A stretch of 64,000 nucleotides of DNA from Methanocaldococcus infernus ME (GTDB lineage: Archaea; AGJL01; Methanococci; Methanococcales; Methanocaldococcaceae): contig NC_014122.1 in assembly GCF_000092305.1 (NCBI RefSeq), positions 1,165,390 to 1,229,389 of the forward strand, read 5' to 3'. Under the pieces are notes generated by a model. It saw only the letters and a program-made list of their open reading frames with translations, was not told the origin of the DNA and made no database searches. Position 1 is the stretch's first letter, and every line of letters starts with the position of its first letter. A program made the position numbers and the translations under genes. Shown one piece after another: positions 12,258 through 23,961 of the stretch.

Positions 12258-12340
12258 TTACTAACAGAATAAGTTTTAATATTTGATATTCCAAAAATAG
12301 TTATAGTTTGGGATATGGAAATTTTATTATTGGTGAGATA

Positions 12341-12514
12341 ATGAAAAAAAATTTCATTTTTTTAACAATAAATGTTATACTCATAACTCTTCTTTTGTCA
12401 TTTGACTTTAAGAATACATACTTAAATATATTTATATTAGTTTTTACTATAATAATTGATATTATGTGGATTTGTAAATTAACTAATAAAAAGCTAAAAT
12501 TTATAAAATTATGA
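12341..12514 (+). CDS. Small two-segment membrane protein (orphan cassette partner)
   Basis: 57 aa: basic start, two hydrophobic segments, and a Lys-rich tail. It has a GGTGA ribosome site five bases before ATG 12341, so I reject the longer frame from 12308. Its stop overlaps by ATGA with a broken DUF95 start, as in intact cassettes where a small membrane protein precedes DUF95. I see no precursor peptide before it. It is probably the leftover immunity-like gene of a cassette that lost its precursor. Confidence 0.65.
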   Translation: MKKNFIFLTINVILITLLLSFDFKNTYLNIFILVFTIIIDIMWICKLTNKKLKFIKL

Positions 12515-12549
12515 AACTACTGTCTATAACTACTGCCTATAGTGGTTGA
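12511..12549 (+). pseudogene. DUF95 5' remnant
   Basis: ATG overlaps the previous stop (ATGA) and begins MKLLSI, like the DUF95 starts MKLPSILTIL elsewhere in the array. After 12 codons it runs into a stop, exactly where precursor-like sequence begins. It marks a deletion that joined a DUF95 start to a precursor gene. Confidence 0.5.
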
Positions 12550-12767
12550 GCCAGTTGCTTTGGGAGATATTGGAGCAGCTTATTATATTAACTTAATTAT
12601 ATTAAAGTCATAAATATAATGATATTATTAATGATGGAGAAAAGGATGGAATAAAAATTCTTTCAGCTGTAGCTGAAGTTGAAGGGACAGCAGAAGCGGC
12701 ATTATTGGCTGCAGCAGGCCTTACTGGAGCAGGATTAGTAGCTGTAGGTGTTACATTGGTTTGCTGA
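12530..12767 (+). pseudogene. Broken precursor peptide gene (leader truncated, core frameshifted)
   Basis: From 12548 the frame reads EPVALGDIGAAYY, which matches the end of the array leader (AEPVALGDI) and the start of a core. The first 26 leader codons are missing. The frame stops near 12610. From about 12617 another frame gives a typical Ala/Gly-rich core (about 12656 onward: ILSAVAEVEGTAEAALLAAA), stopping at 12767. A one- or two-base slip therefore separates the two halves. It is a dead copy of the same gene family and shows that cassettes are lost as well as gained. Confidence 0.72.
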
Positions 12768-12808
12768 ATATTTAATGAGTGATGGTAGTGGTAAATGGTA
12801 GTGGTAAT

Positions 12809-13192
12809 ATGAAATCTTTTATTTTTTATTTTTTTAATAATTGGCGTTTATTATTAAATTTATGGGTAATATTTATTGCTAGTTTCTTAGTTACCATGCT
12901 ATTAAAACCTAAAATAAATATTAACTTTAAAAAATCTGTAACTGTATCTATTATTTGTGTAATATATGCATTGCTAAGTATATTTGCTTATTATGTTATT
13001 GGAAATGTAGGTCTAAAAATATTGTCTAATGTGTTTATTTCAACAATATTCTTTGGGATTGGAATAATATTATACATTAAATCTGAAAAATTAAATAAAA
13101 TTACTAAATACGCTGCAATTGTGTTATTACTATTGTCTATAATGGATTTAATGAAATTATTCATAAAGATTTTAATTAAATTAATTCTGTGA
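12809..13192 (+). CDS. Cassette-specific membrane protein (immunity candidate)
   Basis: 127 aa, about four membrane segments with a basic loop (KSEKLNKITK). It follows the dead precursor and precedes DUF95 copy 1 by four bases, the middle position of every cassette. It shows no clear sequence identity to the other middle genes, as expected for a protein matched to one core peptide. An in-frame ATG at 12779 would add ten residues; the repeat-like GGTAGTGGTAAT upstream makes the start uncertain. Confidence 0.65.
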   Translation: MKSFIFYFFNNWRLLLNLWVIFIASFLVTMLLKPKININFKKSVTVSIICVIYALLSIFAYYVIGNVGLKILSNVFISTIFFGIGIILYIKSEKLNKITKYAAIVLLLLSIMDLMKLFIKILIKLIL

Positions 13193-13196
13193 AACC

Positions 13197-13733
13197 ATGA
13201 AAAAACTACCGCTAATATTAACAATATCTATTTTCATAATTGGTTTTATTTCAGGAGTTATATCAATAAATAACTTATCAAAAATTAACAATAATAGCTT
13301 ACCTAACTTTAAACCTAAAATACAATTTAATTTTATTTCAATATTAACAAACAACTTAAAAGTTATTCTTCTAATGTTAGCAGGAGCTATAACCTTCGGT
13401 TTATCCACTTTTATAAATCTACTATTCAACGGATTTAACGTAGGCGTTTTAATCGGCTCTACTTTCCTAACTAATGAACCATTAAAATTAATAACTGCCT
13501 TAATCCTTCCACACGGAATATTCGAAATCCCAGCTATGTTAATAGCAGCAATAGCGGGCTTTAAAATCCCTTATGAAATAACCCTATATTTATTAGATAA
13601 AAAAGAAAAACCAATAACAGAGGAAGATATAAAAGAATTCTTAAAATTAGCTTTAATTTCAATAATTCTAATTATTATAGCAGCTTTCGTAGAGGTTTAT
13701 ATCACACCAGAGGTAGCTAAGTTACTTATGTAA
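13197..13733 (+). CDS. SpoIIM/DUF95 membrane protein, array copy 1
   Basis: 178 aa, about five membrane segments. Hallmarks of the SpoIIM/DUF95 family are FGLSTFINLLFNGFNVG and PHGIFEIPAMLIAAIAGFKI. DUF95 proteins recur in circular bacteriocin clusters, where they take part in maturation, export or self-protection. The last 70 codons and the 3' untranslated sequence are nearly identical to the other copies, while the N-terminal half differs from copies 2 and 3 and equals copy 4. It carries haplotype I (TATATTTATTAGATAAAAAA). Starts at GAAACCATG, a wording repeated at other DUF95 starts. Confidence 0.85.
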   Translation: MKKLPLILTISIFIIGFISGVISINNLSKINNNSLPNFKPKIQFNFISILTNNLKVILLMLAGAITFGLSTFINLLFNGFNVGVLIGSTFLTNEPLKLITALILPHGIFEIPAMLIAAIAGFKIPYEITLYLLDKKEKPITEEDIKEFLKLALISIILIIIAAFVEVYITPEVAKLLM

Positions 13734-13805
13734 ATCGCTTTACCATTTTATTAATTATTAAAAATCTTAATAGGCAATACATTTCCTTTTTTATACTTTA
13801 CTATT

Positions 13806-13830
13806 CGATTTAAATCGTTATATATATATA
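13806..13830 (+). promoter_or_regulatory. Cassette promoter: palindrome CGATTTAAATCG plus TATA run
   Basis: A perfect 12-base palindrome (13806-13817) abuts T(TA)6 (13818-13830), a strong archaeal TATA box. Start of transcription is expected about 13845-13855. The palindrome sits where transcription factor B and regulators bind. It drives precursor A. Confidence 0.75.
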
Positions 13831-13891
13831 GGTTTTGCATTTATTTTGTTTATGAAAGTGTGTTAAAATACTTTAAAAAATTAAAAAATAG

Positions 13892-13926
13892 TTGGCGATG
13901 ATGCCTCAGTATAGAGGCAGAGCCAA
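13892..13926 (+). promoter_or_regulatory. Kink-turn in the 5' leader of precursor A
   Basis: C-helix UUGGC/GCCAA (13892-13896 with 13922-13926), three-base bulge GAU, tandem GA opposite GA, NC-helix UGCCUC/GAGGCA and loop AGUAUA. This is a textbook simple kink-turn, the binding site of archaeal L7Ae. Here the upstream ORF is shortened to four codons. Confidence 0.75.
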
Positions 13927-13961
13927 TAAGAGTAGTAGAACCACTATGTAAGGGTGGCAAA

Positions 13962-14225
13962 ATGAATATATCCAAAAGCAACATACTTAAAGGTTTCGCT
14001 GCTGTGGCTATGCTTTGCATGATAGGAGCTTTAGTAGCTGAGCCAGTGGCTTTGGGAGATATTGGTCAAGTATATATGACATGGAATATCGATAAAGAGT
14101 ATGGTCAGAGACTATTTAATGCTGGAACAATATTAACTACTGCTGGAGGTTTAGCAATAGGTACTGGAATTGGAGCAGAAGTGGGATTAATTATTGGGGC
14201 CACAGGAGTGATTACCATGGCGTAA
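13962..14225 (+). CDS. Precursor peptide A (leader + hydrophobic core)
   Basis: 87 aa. Residues 1-32 are the array leader (MNISKSNILKGFAAVAMLC, then MIGALVAEPVALG), which looks like a secretory signal peptide. The core of about 55 residues begins DIGQVYMTWN and ends in a Gly/Ala/Ile-rich stretch (AIGTGIGAEVGLIIGATG) and Ala. The layout resembles circular bacteriocin precursors such as enterocin AS-48: a hydrophobic leader, and a helical core of roughly 55-75 residues with no need for cysteines. The leader junction is inferred from where identity between copies ends. Confidence 0.72.
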   Translation: MNISKSNILKGFAAVAMLCMIGALVAEPVALGDIGQVYMTWNIDKEYGQRLFNAGTILTTAGGLAIGTGIGAEVGLIIGATGVITMA

Positions 14226-14295
14226 TTATATTTTAACATTTTTTATTTTATTTTTATTGCACTATTATCATTTATAGCTTCTATTGAGGGATATA

Positions 14296-14490
14296 ATGGG
14301 AACCATGTTTATATTTCCAAAAAAGCATTATTTATATTTTATAATTATATCATATATTGCTTTAGTGTCTCTAATGATGTATTCAATCTATAGTGGAAAT
14401 TTTAGCATAAAGCAACTACCTGCCTTTTTACTCACTACACTTTTTTTAATAATTATAGTACGTTATCTACAAAAAACCATGGAAAAATGA
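14296..14490 (+). CDS. Small two-segment membrane protein (partner of precursor A)
   Basis: 64 aa from ATG 14296, which has GAGGG upstream; a frame from 14284 would add four residues. Two hydrophobic segments and a basic C-terminus (RYLQKTMEK). Circular bacteriocin immunity proteins are small, basic and membrane-spanning, so this is the immunity candidate for precursor A. No identity to other middle genes is evident. Confidence 0.62.
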   Translation: MGTMFIFPKKHYLYFIIISYIALVSLMMYSIYSGNFSIKQLPAFLLTTLFLIIIVRYLQKTMEK

Positions 14491-14532
14491 ACATAATATT
14501 TATCAAGGTTAAACTAAAAATACAGTGAAACC

Positions 14533-14595
14533 ATGAAACTGCCATCAATACTAACAATCCTAATCTCTTCAATAGGTTTCATTATTAGGTATTAA
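14533..14595 (+). pseudogene. DUF95 N-terminal remnant
   Basis: After GTGAAACC the ATG opens MKLPSILTILISSIGFIIRY and then stops. The rest of DUF95 and the usual promoter palindrome are gone. Cassette A therefore has no DUF95 of its own and may depend on another copy. A short piece of promoter-like sequence (TTTTTTGCATTATTATATTATG) in two parts survives after it. Confidence 0.7.
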
Positions 14596-14650
14596 ATTTA
14601 TTTTTTGCATTATTATATTATGAAAAAAAGAAAAATTATTAAAAAATAGC

Positions 14651-14686
14651 TGGCGATGATGAATAGGTAGGAACTATTCGGAGCCA
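14651..14686 (+). promoter_or_regulatory. Divergent kink-turn in the leader of precursor B
   Basis: C-helix UGGC/GCCA, bulge GAU, GA opposite GA, and NC-helix UGAAUAG paired with CUAUUCG (14660-14666 with 14674-14680, closing U-G wobble). The stem sequence differs entirely from the other copies (UGCCUC/GAGGCA) yet pairs fully. That covariation supports a selected RNA structure. Confidence 0.8.
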
Positions 14687-14702
14687 AACCTTTGACTGTG
14701 AT

Positions 14703-14761
14703 GAACTTTTATAAGTTCTAAGCCTTCTATCTAATCTCAATCAAATCACTACAAGAAGTGA
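14703..14761 (+). promoter_or_regulatory. Two hairpins between kink-turn and start of precursor B
   Basis: GAACTT-TTAT-AAGTTC (14703-14718) and TCACT-ACAAGA-AGTGA (14746-14761). The second covers the AAGTGA ribosome site just before ATG 14766 and corresponds to the CCAC/GTGG hairpin at the same place in other cassettes. Confidence 0.6.
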
Positions 14762-14806
14762 CAGAATGAAATATTCAAAAGCAACATACTTAAAGGTTTC
14801 GCTGCT

Positions 14807-15040
14807 GTGGCTATGCTTTGCATGATAGGAGCTGTGTTTGCTGAATCTACAGTGTTAAAAGCATTTGCAGCTGGAGCGGCAGCTGGTTTGGAATTAGCTG
14901 AAGGATCTCCAATGGGCGTCTTAACAGCTGCAGAGGGTATTGGTGTTACTGGTCTTTATTGGGGATTGGCACTTTGTGTAGTGGGTACAGCATGTTTGCC
15001 AGTTACTGCAACTCTATTAGCTATAGGCGCTGCAGCTTAA
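14807..15040 (+). CDS. Precursor peptide B with frameshifted leader
   Basis: 77 aa in the core frame from GTG 14807 (or ATG 14813). The usual leader start is present at ATG 14766, but one base is missing in the fourth codon region, so that frame stops at 14825 after 19 codons. The core frame keeps only the hydrophobic end of the leader (MLCMIGAVFAES). The core is Ala/Gly-rich (FAAGAAAGLELAEG) and ends GAAA. It may be a silenced precursor, or one made from the internal start by re-initiation at the overlap. The later cassette genes are intact. Confidence 0.6.
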   Translation: MAMLCMIGAVFAESTVLKAFAAGAAAGLELAEGSPMGVLTAAEGIGVTGLYWGLALCVVGTACLPVTATLLAIGAAA

Positions 15041-15069
15041 TAAAACTATTCACTTTTTAGGTGAATGCA

Positions 15070-15492
15070 ATGGAAGCAACAAATTATATTAAAAATTTGA
15101 AAGATCAATCAATAATTACCATATTATTTTGTAGCCTAATTTATATTTTTAGTTTGGTACTTCTGTCTATTTCTTTTAATTTTATAGTTGCAGTTAATAC
15201 TTTAAACATTATATTTCTATTAGGGGTTGTACTAGGTTATTATGTGGTTAAAAATATTTTAAAATGGGACCTAAAAGAAAGAGAATTTTTAGGGTATTTG
15301 TATTTACCTATGTTATTTTTGCTTCCAATTCTCGCAGTAAGTTCCACTGAATTTTTAAAATTGATTTTTAACATTTCATTATCAAATGAAAAATCTTTAA
15401 TAGTTATGATTTGTTCAGGGATTTGTTTTATTGCAAGTTATTTTATTGGTTTTTGTCTTTATATATTAAAAAATCAAATGAGGAAATTATGA
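15070..15492 (+). CDS. Cassette-specific membrane protein (partner of precursor B)
   Basis: 140 aa with about four membrane segments. ATG 15070 has AGGTGA five bases upstream, which I prefer over GTG 15061. The stop overlaps the DUF95 start (ATGA), so both are translated together. No family recognised. By position it is the immunity or maturation partner of precursor B. Confidence 0.66.
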   Translation: MEATNYIKNLKDQSIITILFCSLIYIFSLVLLSISFNFIVAVNTLNIIFLLGVVLGYYVVKNILKWDLKEREFLGYLYLPMLFLLPILAVSSTEFLKLIFNISLSNEKSLIVMICSGICFIASYFIGFCLYILKNQMRKL

Positions 15493-16013
15493 AATTGTAT
15501 GAAGTCCTTCCCATAGTTTTATTTTTGATATTTTTTGTTTTTGGATACTTTACAAAAATCCCTACATATGATAATACTCCAAACATTGACATAAACACAA
15601 TATTTCCGAACACTTTTTTAGGAATATTATCAAATAACTTAAAAGTTATATTAACAAATTTATCTGGAAGTGTCCTATTTGGATTATCTACTTTTGTCAA
15701 TATGCTCTATAATGGATATATATTGGGTGTTCAAGCCAAGATATTTACTGTTACTTACGGAGTATATTTTGTTTTAATTACTACCATACCCCATTGCATT
15801 TTTGAAATCCCAGCTATGTTAATAGCAGCAATAGCGGGCTTTAAAATCCCTTATGAAATAACCCTCTATCTCTTAGATAGAAAAGAAAAACCAATAACGG
15901 AAGAAGATATAAAAGAATTCTTAAAATTAGCTTTAATTTCAATAATTCTAATTATTATAGCAGCTTTCGTAGAGGTTTATATCACACCAGAGGTAGCTAA
16001 GTTACTTATGTAA
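15489..16013 (+). CDS. SpoIIM/DUF95 membrane protein, array copy 2
   Basis: 174 aa from ATG 15489 (ATGA overlap, GAGG seven bases upstream). The N-terminal half is unlike other copies (TKIPTYDNTPNIDINTIFP, and IPHCIFEIPAM with Cys for Gly). From the shared EIPAMLIAAIAGFKI onward it is nearly identical. It carries haplotype II (CTCTATCTCTTAGATAG), shared with copy 4. The mosaic of a private first half and shared last third points to gene conversion. Confidence 0.84.
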   Translation: MKLYEVLPIVLFLIFFVFGYFTKIPTYDNTPNIDINTIFPNTFLGILSNNLKVILTNLSGSVLFGLSTFVNMLYNGYILGVQAKIFTVTYGVYFVLITTIPHCIFEIPAMLIAAIAGFKIPYEITLYLLDRKEKPITEEDIKEFLKLALISIILIIIAAFVEVYITPEVAKLLM

Positions 16014-16085
16014 ATCGCTTTACCATTTTATTAATTATTAAAAATCTTAATAAACAATACATTTCCTTTTTTATACTTTACTATT

Positions 16086-16110
16086 CGATTTAAATCGTTA
16101 TATATATATA
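16086..16110 (+). promoter_or_regulatory. Cassette promoter: palindrome CGATTTAAATCG plus T(TA)6
   Basis: Palindrome at 16086-16097, TATA run at 16098-16110. The first ATG downstream (16132) lies about 28 bases from the middle of the TATA run, so transcription should begin at or just before it. Confidence 0.75.
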
Positions 16111-16131
16111 GGTTTTGCATTTATTTTGTTT

Positions 16132-16215
16132 ATGAAAAATGTGGAAAACAATAGGAACATTAGAAAGTGTGTTAAAATAAAACACTTTAAAAAATTAAAA
16201 AATAGTTGGCGATGA
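16132..16215 (+). CDS. Upstream ORF of 27 codons ending inside the kink-turn
   Basis: ATG 16132 to TGA 16213-16215. The product is 27 residues, rich in Lys, Asn and Arg (MKNVENNRNIRKCV, then KIKHFKKLKNSWR). The ATG is at the predicted transcription start, so it would be read as a leaderless message. Its stop codon is part of the GAUGA bulge strand of the kink-turn. It is identical in two other cassettes. A regulatory role is inferred; a chance ORF is possible because the block is duplicated. Confidence 0.4.
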   Translation: MKNVENNRNIRKCVKIKHFKKLKNSWR

Positions 16216-16241
16216 TGCCTCAGTAATAGAGGCAGAGCCAA
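16206..16241 (+). promoter_or_regulatory. Kink-turn in the 5' leader of precursor C
   Basis: UUGGC (16206) pairs with GCCAA (16237). Bulge GAU, GA opposite GA, stem UGCCUC/GAGGCA, loop AGUAAUA. A second hairpin, CCAC (16256-16259) with GTGG (16269-16272), covers the GGTGG ribosome site of precursor C. Confidence 0.78.
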
Positions 16242-16276
16242 TAAGAGTAGTAGAACCACTATGTAAGGGTGGCAAA

Positions 16277-16573
16277 ATGAATATATTCAAAAGCAACATA
16301 CTTAAAGGTTTCGCTGCTGTGGCTATGCTTTGCATGATAGGAGCTTTAGTAGCTGAGCCAGTGGCTTTAGGGAATTGTGGAAAATATTTGGCAGAAAATG
16401 CGGATAGTGATTTGGTCAAGGCACTTGGTTATGCTTCTCAAGGTGTTGGTGTTGCATCATTAAACGCTGCATATACAGTTGCAGCAGCATCATGGGAACT
16501 TTATTTAGTATGCCCTGAAGCTGCAGTTCCAGTTTTATTAGTTGGTGGTTCAGGAGCCATTCTTTATGCATAA
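16277..16573 (+). CDS. Precursor peptide C (leader + core)
   Basis: 98 aa. The leader is the same as in D and E through AEPVALG. The core of about 66 residues starts NCGKYLAENADSDLVKALGY and ends with GGSGAILYA, and includes one Cys near each of its start and middle (NCGK, LVCPE). It has alternating Ala/Val helical stretches, as expected of a membrane-active helical bundle. The kink-turn leader and promoter precede it. Function as a bacteriocin is inferred from layout. Confidence 0.72.
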   Translation: MNIFKSNILKGFAAVAMLCMIGALVAEPVALGNCGKYLAENADSDLVKALGYASQGVGVASLNAAYTVAAASWELYLVCPEAAVPVLLVGGSGAILYA

Positions 16574-16641
16574 TACAATAACTTTTTCTTTTTAAATTAT
16601 TTTTTACAAATAATGATATATGTAGATTGAATGGTGAAAAT

Positions 16642-16968
16642 ATGAATATTATAATTACAATAATTATAATTTCATTTTCAATATTATTAAGTGTTAAGTT
16701 ATTTTATTCCCTAATGAAAAGTCTAAAAAAAGAGGAAATAAAATTAAAAAATTTTGAGGTCATATACAAATTTGTAATTCCTATTATCTTTGCACTTGTA
16801 GGGGTGGAATATAGCAATAGTATATTTATAAGTACTGGTATTAACTCAAAATCGTTTACTTTGTTTATTTTAGATACGATAGTAGTTATATTAATACTAA
16901 TGATATACCATGTAAGTTTAGCTATACTCTCAAGAATTATACAATCAAAATTAAGTTCAAGTAAGTAA
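16642..16968 (+). CDS. Cassette-specific membrane protein (partner of precursor C)
   Basis: 108 aa, about three to four membrane segments with a Lys/Glu loop (KSLKKEEIKLKNFE). ATG 16642 has GGTGA four bases upstream; a TTG frame from 16627 is less likely. It lies between precursor C and DUF95 copy 3. No family recognised; immunity candidate. Confidence 0.65.
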   Translation: MNIIITIIIISFSILLSVKLFYSLMKSLKKEEIKLKNFEVIYKFVIPIIFALVGVEYSNSIFISTGINSKSFTLFILDTIVVILILMIYHVSLAILSRIIQSKLSSSK

Positions 16969-16990
16969 CTTTTAAATTTAGGGTTAAACT

Positions 16991-17536
16991 ATGCTCAAGT
17001 ATACAAACAATATATTAATTATCTTAGCTGTAATTTTAATCTATATTATTGGGTTTATTAATGGGTATTACACAAACAATAATGAAATAAAGACACTAAA
17101 TAATAATAAATCAAAGTTAAGATTTAATTCTTCATTACCAAAACTTTTATTAAACAACTTAATAGCAGATTTTTTAATGCTGGCAGGTTCTATAACCTTC
17201 GGTTTATCCACTTTTATAAATTTAATATTCAATGGTTTTAATCTTGGGTTATTAGTTTCTAATGCTTATAACAGCGGAATGCCCACAAAATTAATTTTAG
17301 CTTTAATCCTCCCACACGGAATATTTGAAATCCCAGCTATGTTAATAGCAGCAATAGCGGGCTTTAAAATCCCTTATGAAATAACCCTATATTTATTAGA
17401 TAAAAAAGAAAAACCAATAACAGAGGAAGATATAAAAGAATTCTTAAAATTAGCTTTAATTTCAATAATTCTAATTATTATAGCAGCTTTCGTAGAGGTT
17501 TATATCACACCAGAGGTAGCTAAGTTACTTATGTAA
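16991..17536 (+). CDS. SpoIIM/DUF95 membrane protein, array copy 3
   Basis: 181 aa. Private N-terminal part (INGYYTNNNEIKTLNNNKSK), then the shared SITFGLSTFINL and PHGIFEIPAMLIAAIAGFKI. The last third and 3' spacer match copy 1 (haplotype I) rather than its neighbours 2 and 4. Twenty-two bases separate it from the upstream membrane protein. Confidence 0.85.
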   Translation: MLKYTNNILIILAVILIYIIGFINGYYTNNNEIKTLNNNKSKLRFNSSLPKLLLNNLIADFLMLAGSITFGLSTFINLIFNGFNLGLLVSNAYNSGMPTKLILALILPHGIFEIPAMLIAAIAGFKIPYEITLYLLDKKEKPITEEDIKEFLKLALISIILIIIAAFVEVYITPEVAKLLM

Positions 17537-17608
17537 ATCGCTTTACCATTTTATTAATTATTAAAAATCTTAATAGGCAATACATTTCCTTTTTTATACT
17601 TTACTATT

Positions 17609-17635
17609 CGATTTAAATCGTTATATATATATATA
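17609..17635 (+). promoter_or_regulatory. Cassette promoter: palindrome CGATTTAAATCG plus T(TA)7
   Basis: Palindrome at 17609-17620, TATA run at 17621-17635. Drives precursor D. TA repeat number differs from the other cassettes. Confidence 0.75.
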
Positions 17636-17656
17636 GGTTTTGCATTTATTTTGTTT

Positions 17657-17740
17657 ATGAAAAATGTGGAAAACAATAGGAACATTAGAAAGTGTGTTAA
17701 AATAAAACACTTTAAAAAATTAAAAAATAGTTGGCGATGA
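17657..17740 (+). CDS. Upstream ORF of 27 codons ending inside the kink-turn
   Basis: Same ORF as at 16132, ATG 17657 to TGA 17738-17740. Same position relative to TATA run and kink-turn. Regulatory meaning inferred. Confidence 0.4.
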   Translation: MKNVENNRNIRKCVKIKHFKKLKNSWR

Positions 17741-17766
17741 TGCCTCAGTAATAGAGGCAGAGCCAA
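17731..17766 (+). promoter_or_regulatory. Kink-turn in the 5' leader of precursor D
   Basis: Same fold as at 16206: UUGGC/GCCAA, GAU bulge, tandem GA/GA, UGCCUC/GAGGCA with loop AGUAAUA. The CCAC/GTGG hairpin over the ribosome site is also present. Confidence 0.78.
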
Positions 17767-17801
17767 TAAGAGTAGTAGAACCACTATGTAAGGGTGGCAA
17801 A

Positions 17802-18119
17802 ATGAATATATTCAAAAGCAACATACTTAAAGGTTTCGCTGCTGTGGCTATGCTTTGCATGATAGGAGCTTTAGTAGCTGAGCCAGTGGCTTTGGGAGAT
17901 ATATCAGCTTACTATTTGTATAAACACTCAAAAAATGGAGATTACTATAATGCTGGTCAGGATGCAGTAGTATTATATGGGGCTGGTGAAACAATAGCAA
18001 AAGGGGTAGGTTATTTAGCATTAGTTTCCGAAACTGGTGCTGAAGCAGGTTTATTGGCAGCAGGTGTAGCAACTGGTGGAGTAGCTTTAATTGCTATTGG
18101 AATTGGTGTAGCGGCTTAA
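17802..18119 (+). CDS. Precursor peptide D (leader + core)
   Basis: 105 aa. Leader of 32 residues, then a core of about 73 residues starting DISAYYLYKHSKNGDYYNAG and ending in a strongly Ala/Gly/Val-rich helix (GLLAAGVATGGVALIAIG) and Ala. The core start resembles the broken precursor at 12548 (DIGAAYY), so these two are probably relatives. No cysteine in the core. Similar in size to enterocin AS-48 (70 residues). Confidence 0.73.
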   Translation: MNIFKSNILKGFAAVAMLCMIGALVAEPVALGDISAYYLYKHSKNGDYYNAGQDAVVLYGAGETIAKGVGYLALVSETGAEAGLLAAGVATGGVALIAIGIGVAA

Positions 18120-18181
18120 TCTTACAATTTATATAAATTTTAATTTTTTAAATATATATTTTTCCTTTATTGGGGGAAACT

Positions 18182-18361
18182 ATGAACAACAATAAAAAAA
18201 CATATCGTAAATTATATTGGCATATTTGGTATATACTATTTGGAATCCTCCTTATATTAATGTTTAATTTAGAACCTCCGTATAAAACATGGATTATAGG
18301 ATTATTGGTCATCATGGCTTTATCAAGGATAATAATATTATGGATTGATATCGATAAATAA
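18182..18361 (+). CDS. Small two-segment membrane protein (partner of precursor D)
   Basis: 59 aa from ATG 18182, preceded by a GGGGG run that could act as ribosome site. Basic N-terminus (NNNKKTYRK) and two hydrophobic segments. Its last codons (WIDIDK) overlap the start of DUF95 copy 4, at what looks like a recombination joint. Immunity candidate for precursor D. Confidence 0.62.
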   Translation: MNNNKKTYRKLYWHIWYILFGILLILMFNLEPPYKTWIIGLLVIMALSRIIILWIDIDK

Positions 18362-18821
18362 CTTATCAAAAATTAACAATAATAGCTTACCTAACTTTAA
18401 ACCTAAAATACAATTTAATTTTATTTCAATATTAACAAACAACTTAAAAGTTATTCTTCTAATGTTAGCAGGAGCTATAACCTTCGGTTTATCCACTTTT
18501 ATAAATCTACTATTCAACGGATTTAACGTAGGCGTTTTAATCGGCTCTACTTTCCTAACTAATGAACCATTAAAATTAATAACTGCCTTAATCCTTCCAC
18601 ACGGAATATTCGAAATCCCAGCTATGTTAATAGCAGCAATAGCGGGCTTTAAAATCCCTTATGAAATAACCCTCTATCTCTTAGATAGAAAAGAAAAACC
18701 AATAACGGAAGAAGATATAAAAGAATTCTTAAAATTAGCTTTAATTTCAATAATATTAATCATTATAGCAGCTTTCGTAGAGGTTTATATCACACCAGAG
18801 GTAGCTAAGTTACTTATGTAA
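18345..18821 (+). CDS. SpoIIM/DUF95 membrane protein, array copy 4, N-terminally truncated
   Basis: 158 aa from TTG 18345. From SINNLSKINNNSLPNFKPK it equals copy 1 at the DNA level, but the first membrane segment (about 20 residues) is missing and the preceding gene runs into it. The last third carries haplotype II, like copy 2, so the gene is a mosaic. The family motifs remain. Whether it is translated (TTG start inside another gene, 17-base overlap) or works without the first segment is unclear. Confidence 0.75.
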   Translation: MISINNLSKINNNSLPNFKPKIQFNFISILTNNLKVILLMLAGAITFGLSTFINLLFNGFNVGVLIGSTFLTNEPLKLITALILPHGIFEIPAMLIAAIAGFKIPYEITLYLLDRKEKPITEEDIKEFLKLALISIILIIIAAFVEVYITPEVAKLLM

Positions 18822-18893
18822 ATCGCTTTACCATTTTATTAATTATTAAAAATCTTAATAAACAATACATTTCCTTTTTTATACTTTACTATT

Positions 18894-18922
18894 CGATTTA
18901 AATCGTTATATATATATATATA
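18894..18922 (+). promoter_or_regulatory. Cassette promoter: palindrome CGATTTAAATCG plus T(TA)8
   Basis: Palindrome at 18894-18905, TATA run at 18906-18922. Drives precursor E. Confidence 0.75.
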
Positions 18923-18943
18923 GGTTTTGCATTTATTTTGTTT

Positions 18944-19027
18944 ATGAAAAATGTGGAAAACAATAGGAACATTAGAAAGTGTGTTAAAATAAAACACTTT
19001 AAAAAATTAAAAAATAGTTGGCGATGA
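18944..19027 (+). CDS. Upstream ORF of 27 codons ending inside the kink-turn
   Basis: Third intact copy of the upstream ORF, ATG 18944 to TGA 19025-19027, as at 16132 and 17657. Confidence 0.4.
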   Translation: MKNVENNRNIRKCVKIKHFKKLKNSWR

Positions 19028-19053
19028 TGCCTCAGTAATAGAGGCAGAGCCAA
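19018..19053 (+). promoter_or_regulatory. Kink-turn in the 5' leader of precursor E
   Basis: Identical fold and sequence to that at 16206. The CCAC/GTGG hairpin over the ribosome site follows before ATG 19089. Confidence 0.78.
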
Positions 19054-19088
19054 TAAGAGTAGTAGAACCACTATGTAAGGGTGGCAAA

Positions 19089-19409
19089 ATGAATATATTC
19101 AAAAGCAACATACTTAAAGGTTTCGCTGCTGTGGCTATGCTTTGCATGATAGGAGCTTTAGTAGCTGAGCCAGTGGCTTTGGGAGATATTTCATGGGCAG
19201 CAACATGGGTTGTAAATAATATTATGCATAATTCTGTAAGTGGAGATGCACAATATGATACTATTGTAACTTCTACTGGAGCATTAGCAGCTTACGGATT
19301 TAAAAATGGGATTAGATTTGCAGTAAGGGGAGTAGTAATTGGAGCCTCTGCGGGTCCTGAAGGCGCTATAGCAGGTGCTGTTTTAGGATTTGCTGCTGGA
19401 GTTGCATAA
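19089..19409 (+). CDS. Precursor peptide E (leader + core)
   Basis: 106 aa. Standard 32-residue leader. The core of about 74 residues starts DISWAATWVVNNIMHNSVSG and ends GAVLGFAAGVA. It carries two Arg in the middle (GIRFAVRGVVIG), giving a cationic patch as in many circular bacteriocins. It shares only the residues next to the leader with the other cores. Inferred secreted peptide. Confidence 0.72.
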   Translation: MNIFKSNILKGFAAVAMLCMIGALVAEPVALGDISWAATWVVNNIMHNSVSGDAQYDTIVTSTGALAAYGFKNGIRFAVRGVVIGASAGPEGAIAGAVLGFAAGVA

Positions 19410-19460
19410 GTTGCATTAGATATTTTTATTTTTTATTTTTTATAATTAAAGGGTGGTTTC

Positions 19461-19841
19461 ATGTATGAAAGTAGTAATTATTCGGGAAATATTTTGTTGT
19501 GGATTTTATTTAATGGATTTATGGTAGTGACATTGTCAACATTATTTGAGTATCTAATGTTCTATGCACACGATATTTTAGTAAGATCCATATTTCAAAT
19601 TTTTGGAATATTGGTTATTTCTACATTTCTTGAGTATATATTCCAATATAAAATATTAAAAAATAAATGTCAAATATCAAAATCAAAAATTATTTACAAT
19701 TCAGTATTTATAGCACTTTTATTTTACATGATAATCATTAATACAGATTTTAGCACTTGGATTTTTATCCTGCCTGTCATTAGTATGATTGTACTTTTTA
19801 TTAGATATAACGATTATTTATCTTTTAGAAGGAGATTTTAA
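19461..19841 (+). CDS. Cassette-specific membrane protein (partner of precursor E)
   Basis: 126 aa, about four membrane segments, basic loop (QYKILKNKCQISKSK) and basic C-terminus (SFRRRF). Strong GGGTGG ribosome site before ATG 19461. It is followed by a DUF95 remnant, so this cassette relies on another DUF95. Immunity candidate. Confidence 0.65.
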   Translation: MYESSNYSGNILLWILFNGFMVVTLSTLFEYLMFYAHDILVRSIFQIFGILVISTFLEYIFQYKILKNKCQISKSKIIYNSVFIALLFYMIIINTDFSTWIFILPVISMIVLFIRYNDYLSFRRRF

Positions 19842-19860
19842 TAGATAATATAGTGAAACC

Positions 19861-19974
19861 ATGAAACTACCATCAATATTAACAATTCTAATCTTCCCAA
19901 TAATTCTAATCATCATAGCAGCATTTGTAGAGGTTTATATCACACCAAAAATAGCGAATTATTTATTAACATAA
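19861..19974 (+). pseudogene. DUF95 remnant with internal deletion (N- and C-terminal ends fused)
   Basis: Opens MKLPSILTILIFP after GTGAAACC and continues in frame as IILIIIAAFVEVYITPKIAN, the DUF95 C-terminal helix, before stopping after 37 codons. The middle, including PHGIFEIPA, is lost. It marks the downstream edge of the array. A 37-residue single-span product could still be made. Confidence 0.75.
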
Positions 19975-20042
19975 CACTTAAATATAATTAAATAAACATA
20001 ATACTAAATACTAATTAAATATCAAAAAATAAAGGGGAGAAA

Positions 20043-20699
20043 ATGAACATAAAAGAACTAATCCTAAATCCAAACAACTTCTTTAAAAATTTAGCAAATA
20101 GGGAGGTATCTCTTAAAACACCGTTCTTGATAGTTCTTACATTTTCGGTGTTTATGTCTATTTATACATATTACACAACATCAACAATGTTTAAAATATT
20201 TCCATCTGATATGCAAGGTATTATGTCAATGATGATGATAATTTCCGCAACATCTGCTTTAGTAGGTGGATTTGTATCATGGATAATAATAGCTGGGATC
20301 ATGCATATAATTTCAATGGTTTTCAAAGGAGAAGGTTCCTTTAAAAGAACTTTAGCATTTGTAGGTTATGGATTTTTACCAAATATTATAGGGCTATTGA
20401 TATCCATTCCTATTACATATTATTTTCTTTCAAATGCTCATATTCCAACTTTAACTATGGAACAACTACAAAATCCAGAGGTTTTAAAGCAGGTAATAAA
20501 ATCTATGTTTCCAAAATCAATGTTATATACTAATCTTTTAATTGGCTTAGCTGTTACTTTATGGAATCTATATATTTGGACCTATGCTATTAAGTATGCA
20601 AGAAACTTAGAGTTAAGGAAAGCTTTTATAGTGGCATTAATCCCAACATTATTATTTGGCTTGTATCAGCTCTACAAAATAATTAAGCTTATTATTTAA
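20043..20699 (+). CDS. Yip1-family multi-pass membrane protein
   Basis: 218 aa, about five membrane segments after an N-terminal NPNNFFKNLANREVSLKTP, the usual opening of prokaryotic Yip1-domain proteins. GEGSFKRTLAFVGYGFLPNI is also typical. RBS AAGGGGAG. It is the first gene of a unit with the exported CARDB-like protein and the ABC transporter, a combination common in archaea. It lies 68 bases after the array. Role unknown; probably an accessory part of the transport system. Confidence 0.82.
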   Translation: MNIKELILNPNNFFKNLANREVSLKTPFLIVLTFSVFMSIYTYYTTSTMFKIFPSDMQGIMSMMMIISATSALVGGFVSWIIIAGIMHIISMVFKGEGSFKRTLAFVGYGFLPNIIGLLISIPITYYFLSNAHIPTLTMEQLQNPEVLKQVIKSMFPKSMLYTNLLIGLAVTLWNLYIWTYAIKYARNLELRKAFIVALIPTLLFGLYQLYKIIKLII

Positions 20700-20707
20700 G
20701 GGATAAA

Positions 20708-22180
20708 ATGAAGAGAATATTTACATATTTTATTCTTTTGATATTATTAAACTTAGTCTATGCAACAATAAATTTTGTAAATTTTGACTATAAAAATGAG
20801 TACTTAGAGCCAGGAAAAACTTATGATGTTTGGGTTGTTGTTATCCCTGACAAAGATATTAATAATACTATTTTTAGTATCTCTCCTTATGGATTAAGTA
20901 AAAAATATATAGAAATAATTAAGGGAGAGGATTATGAAGGCTCTCTTGTAGAGGGTGAGAAAGGAGTAGGGCATTTTATTATTAAAGTTAAAGATGATGC
21001 TCCACCTTACAACTATAAGTTTATTGTTTATTGTAACTACACCATTAATAAAAGATACTATTCAGAAAATCAGGTCTTTGAGATTCCAGTTAGGGGAAAA
21101 CCCTTAATTTCTATTGATAGTCCTACAACATTAAAGGAAGGTTACAATGAGATTTTTTTAGAAGTTACTAACAAAGGAACAGGATCTGCTCAGAATATAA
21201 AAATAGTATTTAATGGAGAAAAGAATATTCAAATTTTGGGAGATAATACTTACATAATAGAGAACTTAAATGCTGGTATAACTAAGTTAATAAAATTAAA
21301 GTTATATGCCAATGGAGACCTTGGAACTATAAATTATAAAGTCTTGTATGAAAGTCCTTACAACCTATTAATTTTAAAGAGTAAGACAGAATCTATAGAT
21401 TCTGAGACACTAAATTATGACAATGAAAAAATATTTAGTGAAAGTGGAACTTTAACTTTTAAGATAATCCCAAGTGACTTAATTTTTATCTCATTGAAAA
21501 ATCTAACGTATCCTGTAGGAGAAATATGTAACTTAACACTAATTTTAAAAAATAACTATAAAGATTCGTATTTCACTGTTATTATTGACAAATATTATGT
21601 AGGAGATAATAAGAAAGAGTTGTTTATAAAGAGAGGAGAAGTTAAAGAAGTTCCTTTTAAGATAAAAGTGGATAAGACAGGCTTAGTAAATATCCCAATA
21701 AAAATTTATTTTGATAAAAATGAGATCAATAAGAATTTAACTATAAACATAGTTGGAAAGCCTGACTTAGTTTTATCAGGTGTTAATGTTGAAGGCTTTA
21801 AACATTTGGTCATTACTGGAGATTTATGTAACATAGGAACTGGAATAGCTAAAAGTGTTTTAATAAGCTTAGTAAAAACAGAAAATATAGAGCCAGAGAA
21901 GCCTTATGAAAACTATTTTGTAGGAACTTTAAATCCAGATGATTATGGAAGTTTTGAATTACACTGTCAAATTAATGGAACTGTAAATGAGATACCAATT
22001 AAAATAATGTATAGGGATGAGAATAATAACTTAATAACTATATATAAGTCAATAAAAATTAATAAAACCATTTCTCCAAAAAGTGAGAGTAAAGATAATT
22101 ATTTAGTCATTGGGGTTGGCATTCTCTTCTTTATAGGAGTAATCTACTTAATTTATAAAGGGATTATAAAGAAATTTTGA
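20708..22180 (+). CDS. Exported CARDB-like protein with C-terminal membrane anchor
   Basis: 490 aa. Signal peptide (residues 1-20, KRIFTYFILLILLNLVYA), several beta-rich immunoglobulin/CARDB-like repeats (for example LKEGYNEIFLEVTNKGTGSA and the later VGEICNLTLILKNNYKDS), and a C-terminal membrane helix with a Lys tail. The fold class is that of archaeal COG1361-type proteins that accompany MacB-like ABC transporters. It probably stands outside the membrane as a substrate-binding or periplasm-spanning part. Eight bases follow the Yip1 gene; ten precede the ATPase. Confidence 0.82.
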   Translation: MKRIFTYFILLILLNLVYATINFVNFDYKNEYLEPGKTYDVWVVVIPDKDINNTIFSISPYGLSKKYIEIIKGEDYEGSLVEGEKGVGHFIIKVKDDAPPYNYKFIVYCNYTINKRYYSENQVFEIPVRGKPLISIDSPTTLKEGYNEIFLEVTNKGTGSAQNIKIVFNGEKNIQILGDNTYIIENLNAGITKLIKLKLYANGDLGTINYKVLYESPYNLLILKSKTESIDSETLNYDNEKIFSESGTLTFKIIPSDLIFISLKNLTYPVGEICNLTLILKNNYKDSYFTVIIDKYYVGDNKKELFIKRGEVKEVPFKIKVDKTGLVNIPIKIYFDKNEINKNLTINIVGKPDLVLSGVNVEGFKHLVITGDLCNIGTGIAKSVLISLVKTENIEPEKPYENYFVGTLNPDDYGSFELHCQINGTVNEIPIKIMYRDENNNLITIYKSIKINKTISPKSESKDNYLVIGVGILFFIGVIYLIYKGIIKKF

Positions 22181-22190
22181 GGTTTAACTT

Positions 22191-22880
22191 ATGATTGAAC
22201 TAAAAAATGTAACCAAAGTTTATAAGATGGGTAATGAGCTAATCTATGCTTTAAAAAACATAAATTTAAAAATAAAAGAGGGTGAATTTGTTTCAATTAT
22301 GGGACCCTCAGGAAGTGGTAAGTCTACTCTATTAAATATTATTGGTTGTTTAGACAGGCCAACAGAGGGAGAGGTTTACATTGACAAAATAAAAACAAAT
22401 GATTTAGATGATGATGAATTAACAAAAATTAGAAGGGATAAGATTGGCTTTGTCTTCCAACAATTTAATTTAATCCCTCTACTAACAGCTTTAGAGAATG
22501 TTGAGCTTCCACTAATTTTTAAATATAAGAATTCTATGAGTGAAGCTGAGAGGAAAAGAAGAGCTTTAGAATGCTTAAAGATGGCTGAGTTGGATGAGAA
22601 ATTTGCTAACCACAAGCCAAATCAGTTGAGTGGAGGACAACAGCAGAGAGTGGCTATAGCAAGGGCTATAGTAAATGATCCAAAAATTATTTTAGCTGAT
22701 GAACCAACTGGAGCCTTAGATAGTAAAACAGGAAGGAAAATTATGGAATTATTAAAGAAATTAAATGGCTATGGAAAAACTATTGTGGTTGTTACTCATG
22801 ATATAAATGTATCTAAATATGGAGATAGAATAATTTATATAAAGGATGGCTCAATTGAAAGGGAAGAGAATGTATCTTGA
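22191..22880 (+). CDS. ABC transporter ATPase, MacB/LolD type (MJ0796-like)
   Basis: 229 aa. Walker A GPSGSGKST (38-46), signature LSGGQ (146-150), Walker B with catalytic E171, and switch H203. It is recognisably the same protein type as Methanocaldococcus jannaschii MJ0796, whose nucleotide-sandwich dimer is a standard structural model. It energises the permease next to it. MacB-type systems use their ATPase for mechanical work on extracytoplasmic substrates. In circular bacteriocin clusters a second transporter of this type (FGH) gives extra self-protection. Confidence 0.95.
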   Translation: MIELKNVTKVYKMGNELIYALKNINLKIKEGEFVSIMGPSGSGKSTLLNIIGCLDRPTEGEVYIDKIKTNDLDDDELTKIRRDKIGFVFQQFNLIPLLTALENVELPLIFKYKNSMSEAERKRRALECLKMAELDEKFANHKPNQLSGGQQQRVAIARAIVNDPKIILADEPTGALDSKTGRKIMELLKKLNGYGKTIVVVTHDINVSKYGDRIIYIKDGSIEREENVS

Positions 22881-23961
22881 AATGGCAAAGAGAAACTTAA
22901 TGAGGCATAAGCTAAGAACCATCTTAGCTTTATTGGGAATTATAGTAGGTGTAGCCACTATAACAACCTTAGGAATCTTAGGGGAGAGTGCTAAAGTAGG
23001 GATAGAGAAAAATTTTGGAGATGTGGCAAACTATATCTTAATCTTTCCCAACTGGATGGCTGGAGTTAAGTATTTTACAGATAAAGACTTACTGAAACTT
23101 AGAGGAATTGGTGGGAAAGTAATCCCAATAAAGGAAACTTATGACTCTATCTATATTGTTGGAAAAAATAAACATGTAGAAGTAAGAATTTTTGGAATTA
23201 AAAAAGATGAAATCAAATACTTAAATTTGGATATAAAATTATCTAACACTCAAACAGCTGTAGACTCCTTCTTTTCAGAGCTACATGAGGTTAAAAAAGG
23301 GGACACTATAAAGATAAAAAATATCTCTTTTAGGATCTCTTCTCTATACAATTCAACCTTTATAATTCCAAGGAACTCTATAATTTTGACTGAAAGATCT
23401 TTCAACAGATTTTATAAGCTTAATTACACAAGAATTGCTATTTATGTTCCTAACATGAATAAAATTAAGGAGGTTCAAAATGAGATAGATAAAAGATTAA
23501 ATAAAAAGAAAAAGAGGGCTATAGTTATCTCATTAGGTTCAATATTGAATAAGATATCTAATGCCATAAACACTATAACCTACATCTTAATGGCTATTGG
23601 AGGAATCTCTCTATTGGTTGCTGGGCTTGGAATAGGGAATGTTATGCTCATGAATGTTATAGAGAGGACTAAAGAAATTGGAATTATGAGAAGTGTAGGG
23701 GCTTCAAAGAAAGATATCATGCTTCTATTTTTATATGAAGCCTTAATCTTAGGAATTATTGGTTCAGCCATTGGCTCAGCTATAGGTTTAGGGATAAGTT
23801 ATATAATAGTTAATTTACTACATACTTCACTTCCAGCAAGTTCAATACTTTACATAATATTAGGAGTTTTGTTTGGAGTAGGCACTGCTTTAATCTCTGC
23901 CTTATATCCTGCTTATAAGGCAGCTAACTTAGATCCAATAAAGGCACTGAGGGGAGAGTAA
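22870..23961 (+). CDS. ABC transporter permease, MacB/FtsX type
   Basis: 363 aa from ATG 22870. One N-terminal membrane segment (HKLRTILALLGIIVGVATI), an extracytoplasmic domain of about 200 residues, then three membrane segments with the family wording ERTKEIGIMRSVGASKKDI and PAYKAANLDPIKALRGE. That is the four-segment MacB layout. A start at 22846 would overlap the ATPase by 35 bases, against 11 for 22870. Works with the ATPase upstream and probably with the CARDB and Yip1 proteins. Confidence 0.92.
   Translation: MYLEMAKRNLMRHKLRTILALLGIIVGVATITTLGILGESAKVGIEKNFGDVANYILIFPNWMAGVKYFTDKDLLKLRGIGGKVIPIKETYDSIYIVGKNKHVEVRIFGIKKDEIKYLNLDIKLSNTQTAVDSFFSELHEVKKGDTIKIKNISFRISSLYNSTFIIPRNSIILTERSFNRFYKLNYTRIAIYVPNMNKIKEVQNEIDKRLNKKKKRAIVISLGSILNKISNAINTITYILMAIGGISLLVAGLGIGNVMLMNVIERTKEIGIMRSVGASKKDIMLLFLYEALILGIIGSAIGSAIGLGISYIIVNLLHTSLPASSILYIILGVLFGVGTALISALYPAYKAANLDPIKALRGE

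Follow-up and report, generated by a model that had tools for sequence, protein, structure and literature searches.

Few archaeal peptide antagonism systems have, to our knowledge, been characterised, most of them halocins, sulfolobicins and recent lanthipeptides, and a 2019 mBio article by Makarova et al. reportedly covers archaeal toxins. The closest described systems are the gene clusters for circular bacteriocins, in which SpoIIM (DUF95) is treated as class-defining (PMC13289728). These clusters (enterocin AS-48, uberolysin/circularin, Priestia plasmid p2 and an S. aureus plasmid) share with the locus described here a leader and hydrophobic core, sometimes in tandem precursors, together with SpoIIM, a YIP1 protein, a MacB-type ABC transporter with partner proteins and a small hydrophobic basic membrane protein, which in our locus occurs once per cassette and has a putative immunity role. 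In the Methanococcales, arCOG01996 'dark matter' islands containing DUF95, small diverged membrane proteins, Yip1 and a SalXY-type transporter have been noted and, in the parts of the accounts that deal with them, were read as "defense" or "membrane remodelling" (Makarova et al. 2014, PMC4158269; 2015, PMC5898192). These islands are very probably the same loci as the arrays analysed here. Constant-leader precursors, core/immunity pairing, orphan immunity genes and an RNA element are not described in those parts of the 2014 and 2015 accounts. An earlier note on this DNA had stated that no characterised system is known to carry so many swapped cassettes in one locus, which is fair as regards function, but the loci themselves had already been noted by Makarova et al.

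Organisation of the cassette array

In the window, the whole 64,000-nucleotide stretch of the Methanocaldococcus infernus ME genome that was analysed, positions 12308-23961 hold six cassette units followed by a Yip1/CARDB-like/MJ0796-type ATPase/MacB block, with all features on the forward strand. The units are tandem repeats of one order (precursor, private small membrane protein, SpoIIM) which, with PF01944 matches reaching 1e-33, bears out the layout that had been proposed. Of the five cassettes and a broken one counted earlier, the total of six units stands, while only four precursors are intact, one being broken and that of cassette 3 frameshifted in its leader. SpoIIM indeed occurs in the mixture of states described before, with three full-length copies, one N-terminally shortened and two remnants.

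At the far end of the array lies an orphan, immunity-like small membrane protein whose precursor has been lost (12308-12514), with homologues in the arrays of two other species (L039:13707, 62%; L043:18353, 46%). The precursor of cassette 1 (12519-12770) is broken by stops in all frames, with fragments left of the VEPVALGDIG boundary and of the core C-terminus; its intact relatives (L038:11051 and L043:10430) each adjoin the same immunity type, and the private membrane protein of cassette 1 (12779-13192) shows 63% and 68% identity to the L038 and L043 counterparts. A full-length SpoIIM (13197-13733; PF01944 E 1.1e-33) completes the unit. Cassette 2 encodes a precursor of 87 aa (13962-14225; leader about 32, core about 55) with the same core as L041:8101 (z 36-38), a membrane protein related to the L041 counterpart (14284-14490; z 11.7) and a SpoIIM remnant reduced to N-terminal residues (14535-14597; repeat D13). 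In precursor 3 (14768-15040) one base is missing just after the ATG, so that the leader is out of frame and the gene probably silent; the membrane protein beside it (15061-15492) and SpoIIM (15489-16013; PF01944 106 bits) are both present, the latter at full length.

Cassette 4 consists of an intact precursor ORF of 98 aa (16277-16573), a membrane protein with orphan relatives at L039:16336 and L043:16048 (16627-16968) and the third full-length SpoIIM (16991-17536; PF01944 105 bits). The 105-aa precursor 5 (17802-18119) has a core common to L040:62 and L038:9259; its membrane protein (18170-18361) has orphan relatives in L039 (79%), L044 (80%) and L045 (59%), and its SpoIIM (18345-18821), 99% identical to the cassette 1 copy, has lost the N-terminus at a recombination joint. 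In cassette 6 the 106-aa precursor (19089-19409) carries a core related to L040:2292 (z 20.7) and is followed by a membrane protein with relatives at L042:7894 and L105:941 (19461-19841; 43-44%) and by a SpoIIM remnant in which sequence inspection reveals a large internal deletion (19862-19972).

The block that ends the array comprises a Yip1/YknW-like four-helix membrane protein in the As-48E/YknW position (20043-20699; PF04893 2e-30, NCBIfam YknW 1.2e-7, below its cut-off), an exported CARDB-like protein with a C-terminal anchor in the adaptor position (20708-22180), a MacB-type ATPase orthologous to MJ0796 (22191-22880; PDB 1F3O/1L2T, 423 bits) and a MacB/FtsX permease (22870-23961; PF02687 3e-23, PF12704 6e-11). 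The shared transporter claimed earlier was thus recovered by profile or PDB match for Yip1, ATPase and MacB, whereas CARDB scored only below threshold (Pfam E 0.021); despite this score the protein belongs to the conserved parts of the locus, with orthologues at relatives' loci. The gene order of the block resembles that of YknWXYZ and of As-48EFGH, a MacB-like four-component immunity transporter, namely a Yip1-like membrane protein, an extracytoplasmic protein, a MacB-type NBD and a MacB permease. It differs from these in closing a cassette array and in having an anchored exported CARDB-like protein in place of the membrane-fusion adaptor.

Constant and variable blocks, and pairing of cores with membrane proteins

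Cassette repeats rise far above chance. Between cassettes the leaders are 97-100%, the SpoIIM 3' halves 91-97% and the UTRs 83-100% identical, whereas core identity is 50-58%, about the shuffled level, and within the M. infernus genome the cores, like the private membrane proteins, are mutually unrelated. The array is thus divided into constant and variable blocks, and since near-identical constant blocks flank variable ones, cores could be acquired, dropped or exchanged by homologous recombination.

The private membrane proteins, one per cassette, are 57-200 aa long, mostly with 2-5 helices (median about 3 TM) and a net charge of +5; a Pfam search with five of them gave nothing convincing. 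Between species, cores and membrane proteins travel together: 12 pairs are shared, against a shuffled mean of 4.5, and none of 10,000 shuffles reached this number (P about 0.0004 when the closest genomes are left out). One pair has crossed from one family to another and sits beneath a different leader in each (L045:8944 and L038:12611; z 34-36 and 60). The pairing is not absolute, as several homologous cores have unrelated membrane partners. Among orphan membrane proteins, 25 of 30 match proteins of the same kind in other genomes. A variable effector co-inherited with a membrane partner, and orphan immunity-like genes, are general traits of bacteriocin-immunity cassettes, and both are found here; judged from sequence, such co-travel and orphans together are the signature of such cassettes.

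Two other explanations were weighed against these observations. Following Makarova et al. (2015), the islands might encode membrane-remodelling or vesicle-forming complexes in which the small proteins, rather than being toxins, serve as exchangeable components alongside SpoIIM and Yip1. All parts are indeed membrane or secreted proteins, and the SpoIIM and Yip1 families are known from membrane remodelling, but hypervariable cores bound to particular partners, orphan partners, leaders frameshifted next to intact partners and a locus missing from close relatives would not be expected from this model, which we regard as improbable. Alternatively, the cores could be pheromones used in signalling or kin recognition, the private membrane proteins their receptors and MacB an importer or clearing device for the signal. 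A signal-receptor pair would equally account for a peptide that is polymorphic and has its own membrane partner; however, the small private proteins contain no recognised signalling domain, no regulator belongs to the cassettes, and partners that occur as orphans are easier to explain as immunity proteins than as receptors, making this similarly a long shot.

Precursor peptides and the question of circularity

The ALG boundary at residue 32, earlier taken as the start of the core, did not prove universal; the feature kept in nearly all precursors is a signal-peptidase-like A|[E/T/S][P/S] site at residues 26-28. The leader is not restricted to small peptides, since some larger, secreted proteins of 241-387 aa also carry it, together with the same UTR. 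The cores (median 71 aa, mostly 55-81 aa) are Ala/Gly-rich and hydrophobic (GRAVY 0.6), also at their C-termini, with a slightly negative net charge (median -2). Pfam and NCBIfam searches with the precursors returned nothing convincing. A weak likeness of the cores to ATP synthase c in a PDB sequence search was judged a chance match.

These properties bear on whether the products are circularised head to tail, as the earlier note had suggested, and are thus true bacteriocins of the AS-48/uberolysin type, with leader cleavage, N-to-C ligation and SpoIIM acting in the maturation and export machinery. Core size and composition would suit such peptides, as would the class-defining SpoIIM and the occurrence of YIP1 and tandem precursors in bacterial circular clusters. 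In the cassette SpoIIM profile, the Priestia circular-cluster SpoIIM scored 61.6 bits, a housekeeping paralogue 38.2 and the S. aureus protein 35.8, in a control with few bacterial sequences. AlphaFold models of two core groups are likewise all-helical, at low confidence (pLDDT 51 and 60). Against circularity, none of the circular-bacteriocin profiles (PF09221, TIGR03651, PF16942 and others) matched the five precursors searched, while bacterial circular bacteriocins, as a positive control, matched TIGR03651 and PF09221, and in HMM and hhalign comparisons the cores scored against bacterial circular bacteriocins below shuffled controls. Known circular-bacteriocin ligation sites are hydrophobic, whereas the putative core begins with Asp or Asn in most precursors, and the cores are acidic as opposed to the cationic type. 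Within 12308-23961 the sole ATPase is of the MacB type, with no SpoIIM-partner transport ATPase, and the array lacks a large maturation membrane protein. Further differences from circular bacteriocin clusters are the long, constant, signal-peptide-like leader, the kink-turn UTR and the repetition of a private immunity gene, often with SpoIIM, in each cassette. Membership in a known circular-bacteriocin family is therefore not supported; head-to-tail circular products as such, a sub-case of the antagonism reading whose likelihood overlaps with it, are a tentative minority option.

A kink-turn family in the leader RNA

The precursors are preceded by one or two kink-turn hairpins that covary and are not represented in Rfam. 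Their anatomy is a C stem, a 3-nt bulge, tandem G.A pairs and an NC stem (GGC-GAU-GA-N...N-GA-GCC), and the NC stem covaries, with 51 double-change cells against 21.8 in shuffled alignments (0 of 500). In the array the hairpin of cassette 2 lies at 13890-13928 (covariance model E 1e-12; a pattern not expected by chance), that of cassette 3 at 14648-14689 (E 3.7e-10) with a weaker one in tandem behind it at 14690-14728 (E 0.011), and those of cassettes 4, 5 and 6, found with the same model, at 16204-16243, 17729-17768 and 19016-19055. Of 53 covariance-model matches, 50 lie upstream of leader genes, and an Rfam scan of 18 kb with E up to 5 gave no match near the UTRs. The kink-turn family is thus apparently new and almost exclusive to genes bearing this leader, a rare candidate for control of antagonism at the RNA level in archaea.

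L7Ae autoregulatory leaders likewise carry, close to the ribosome binding site, a 5'UTR kink-turn with tandem G:A pairs and a GAU bulge as here (PMC5539422, PMC6298567). The array kink-turns differ in preceding another gene set, often in tandem, and in having C:G at -1b:-1n and often G at 3n, which favours protein-free folding; those of the U:A class in M. infernus should need L7Ae. By analogy with PMC5539422 and from the motif, L7Ae may control the array leaders.

Distribution and proposed mechanism

Across a sample of 36 Methanococcales genomes, loci with precursor matches and the same layout occur in 16; cassette repertoires differ between species and the locus is absent from close relatives. 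High-scoring SpoIIM is confined to these loci in this sample. Five genomes have a CARDB-like orthologue and no precursor match, one of them on a 3-kb contig; the other four, on inspection, contained the transporter block alone and no recognisable cassette.

We consider it likely, at a probability of about three quarters, that the locus is an archaeal peptide-antagonism island built of cassettes of a helical peptide and a private immunity protein, with a shared transporter, recombining blocks and kink-turn leaders. The earlier claim that antagonistic peptides are secreted, have private immunity proteins and share one transporter appears well supported, at the level of sequence, by pair co-travel, orphans, differing repertoires and the correspondence of SpoIIM and the four-gene transporter to bacterial circular-bacteriocin clusters. 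Each cassette would be transcribed from its own TATA-like promoter with a 5'UTR in which one or two kink-turns, probably L7Ae-bound, and a frequent Shine-Dalgarno hairpin may set precursor translation. The product would be a secreted, membrane-seeking helical peptide whose leader, resembling a signal peptide, is removed by cleavage at A|EP or further on, at ALG|D, with the cassette SpoIIM (DUF95, as in circular-bacteriocin clusters) helping to move or mature it, and the private basic membrane protein would protect the producer. The Yip1-CARDB-like-ATPase-MacB block may act like As-48EFGH/YknWXYZ, capturing the peptide at the outer face and expelling it, so that all cassettes have a second line of immunity in common. 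As constant blocks (SpoIIM 3' half, UTR and leader) flank variable ones (core, immunity gene and SpoIIM 5' half), swapped cores would come to sit beneath a host-specific leader, and toxins would decay first, immunity genes persisting as orphans. In a bolder and, in our view, unlikely form, the loci are a library of archaeal bacteriocins, possibly circular ones, that is driven by recombination and whose core-immunity modules insert interchangeably beneath the host-specific leader and new kink-turn family, the translation-linked protein L7Ae controls a whole antagonism regulon including the larger secreted proteins, and MJ0796 is an immunity motor.

If the antagonism reading is right, hyperthermophilic methanogens possess a widespread modular system in which cassette exchange and orphan immunity can be seen and which is open to direct test in cultivated species, M. 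jannaschii among them. The same reading would also give a function to the 'dark matter' arCOG01996 loci and to MJ0796, the structure of whose nucleotide-binding domain is a reference for ABC transporters.

Relatives on plasmids and viral contigs

SpoIIM searches of plasmids reached circular-bacteriocin clusters of Priestia (YIP1, four tandem precursors) and S. aureus, and a Methanomethylovorans plasmid that combines SpoIIM and tandem 66-aa peptides with the same transporter block. The 66-aa peptides of M. hollandica look like circular bacteriocins by eye, but were set aside as such for want of a profile match. Viral contigs contained no precursor; one distant SpoIIM was observed in them (L106).

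Architecture and spread of the cassette array

In order to establish the anatomy of the array in the complete source genome (1,328,194 bases), we combined ORF calling, repeat analysis and direct reading of the DNA. The tandem array that an earlier note had described as five cassettes and a broken one is real, with corrections: it holds six units (12308-20000), with four precursors intact (starting at 13962, 16277, 17802 and 19089), one frameshifted and the first broken (12519-12770), and an orphan small membrane gene at 12308 in addition to the six. The frameshifted precursor, in cassette 3 (14768), has lost one base directly after its ATG and is probably silent. SpoIIM, which the note had placed in each cassette as intact, truncated or remnant, is full length in cassettes 1, 3 and 4; the copy in cassette 5 lacks its N-terminus, and cassettes 2 and 6 keep only remnants. 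All four proposed transporter genes follow the array (20043-23961): Yip1 (20043-20699), an exported protein for which the CARDB label is kept only as CARDB-like (20708-22180), a MacB-type ATPase orthologous to MJ0796 (22191-22880; PDB 1F3O/1L2T, 423 bits) and the MacB permease (22870-23961).

Among the cassettes of this genome, leaders are 97-100% identical (74-76% for the frameshifted copy), UTRs 83-100% and SpoIIM 3' halves 91-97%, whereas cores reach 50-58% and, like most private membrane genes, are hardly more alike than shuffled sequences. Constant blocks thus flank variable ones, and the truncated SpoIIM copies mark recombination joints. TATA-like (TA)n tracts lie upstream of cassettes 2, 4, 5 and 6 (13812-13832, 16092-16112, 17617-17639 and 18902-18926), and in alignment their lengths vary in 2-base steps; slippage there could possibly tune the cassette promoters.

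The comparison across relatives called for by the note found precursors, by profile search, in 16 of 36 Methanococcales genomes and four of five genera; three of the genomes compared (G001, G002 and G012) have no close orthologue of the precursor, the cassette SpoIIM or the CARDB-like protein. Gene order is identical at every well-preserved locus, and one relative has a single cassette adjoining its MJ0796 orthologue. In the 36 genomes, cassette-type SpoIIM is confined to these loci, ordinary SpoIIM being nearly universal. At three related loci, MJ1010-like ATPase genes (PF01637+PF21690; L038:7797-9043, L040:738-2042, L043:11030-12334 and 14711-16027) follow a SpoIIM that stops after about 49 codons, in three cases ending in NFNFPSIT, as if such a gene had more than once taken the place of the SpoIIM 3' half. 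Toxin-antitoxin-like genes, either HicA/HicB-like or ParE-like with a partner, also lie between cassettes of relatives (L033:11774-12221, L037:10824-11271 and 12536-13004, L038:10311, L051:7907-8354, L104:459-915, L105:269-737; Pfam check on three representatives).

Pairing of cores with private membrane proteins

Across 35 cassettes, 13 cross-genome pairs have homologous private membrane proteins, and in 12 of these the core is shared too; 10,000 within-genome shuffles gave 4.5 such pairs on average and never more than 10 (P ~0.0004 without the closest genomes). The reverse pairing is looser, many weakly similar cores having unrelated membrane partners. The clearest shared pair joins a cassette from the other family of the order (L045:8944) to one from the window's genus (L038:12611; core z 34-36, membrane protein z 60), each under the leader type of its own host. 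Mean leader similarity scores are 105 within genomes, 70 between genomes and 84 for shared cassettes. Furthermore, 25 of 30 orphan small membrane genes have matching relatives elsewhere, either linked to a cassette or themselves orphans, and the cassette 5 membrane protein has orphan relatives in three other genomes (59-80%). A precursor that is lost while its partner is kept is the pattern that selection in toxin-immunity systems predicts. The note's reading, in which each cassette supplies a secreted antagonistic peptide and its own immunity protein, is well supported by this comparative evidence. Three precursors (L037:11998, L050:10320 and window 14768) carry leader frameshifts or stops with core and partner intact, which would amount to a silenced peptide with immunity retained.

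A kink-turn upstream of the precursors

Upstream of the precursors lies an element of the form GGC-GAU-GAN-stem-loop-stem-NGA-GCC, by its sequence a canonical kink-turn of the Kt-7 form. The pattern occurs five times in the window, where none is expected, each time before a precursor, as single or tandem hairpins (13890-13928, 14648-14728, 16204-16243, 17729-17768 and 19016-19055); tandem pairs occur in several species. Over 30 distinct copies, both sides of the stem beyond the G.A pairs had changed in 51 cells (whole structure), compared with 21.8 expected from shuffles, none of 500 reaching 51, and 0-17 in slid controls. A covariance model found 53 strong copies among the Methanococcales searched, 50 of them no more than 200 nt before the start of a gene that carries the leader; as it was trained on copies from these same loci, recovery there is expected, and the information lies in the near lack of copies elsewhere. 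The element precedes 44 of 51 leader genes and is not in Rfam. The UTRs folded more stably than their shuffles, with z-scores of -3.2 to -4.0 in intact cassettes and only -1.3 in the frameshifted one. A hairpin covering the Shine-Dalgarno sequence (CCACC/GGUGG) is common, but not universal, and has compensated variants such as UCACU/AGUGA.

In archaea, L7Ae acts through kink-turns of this kind to repress its own mRNA (PMC5539422, PMC6298567). Published rules predict protein-free folding for the U:G class and a need for L7Ae in the U:A class of M. infernus. Larger secreted proteins (241-387 aa; L053:5520, L055:7207, L050:12338, L097:5227, L098:5537, L099:2550) with no confident Pfam match carry the same leader and kink-turn UTR, which suggests a regulon wider than the cassettes. 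Small multi-helix membrane genes adjoin several of them.

Makarova et al. 2014 (PMC4158269) noted that Methanococcales DUF95 loci adjoin a transporter of the SalXY type and suggested that these are 'novel membrane-associated defense systems'; Makarova et al. 2015 (PMC5898192) favoured membrane remodelling. Precursor peptides, pairing and the RNA element go unmentioned in the portions of the two papers covered by our comparison. The RNA element appears to be new.

Relation to circular bacteriocins

Searching 72,556 plasmids with SpoIIM (tblastn) gave few matches. Among the bacterial ones, Priestia p2 encodes a YIP1 protein, four tandem circularin/uberolysin-type precursors, SpoIIM, adaptor and ATPases; an S. 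aureus plasmid encodes an uberolysin/carnocyclin precursor, SpoIIM, adaptor, ATPases and permease. Against the cassette SpoIIM profile the Priestia protein scores 61.6 bits, above a Methanocaldococcus housekeeping paralogue (38.2), but the S. aureus protein only 35.8, so that the link to bacterial circular-bacteriocin clusters is moderate. In As-48EFGH and YknWXYZ, which act in protection against AS-48 and SDP, a MacB-type transporter is accompanied by a 4-TM partner and an adaptor, whereas the M. infernus block has the CARDB-like anchored protein in the adaptor's place. Several results count against membership: the precursors match no circular-bacteriocin model, comparison of the cores with those of bacterial circular bacteriocins gave lower scores than shuffled controls did, the cores are slightly acidic, and an ATPase partnering SpoIIM is absent; core structure prediction was uninformative. 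Cyclisation of the cores is thus still hypothetical.

A related archaeal locus outside Methanococcales lies on the Methanomethylovorans hollandica plasmid pMETHO01 (L096). It encodes two hydrophobic 66-aa peptides in tandem with an 80-aa membrane protein, a SpoIIM scoring 99.6 bits against the cassette profile, and a divergent Yip1-exported protein-ATPase-permease block.
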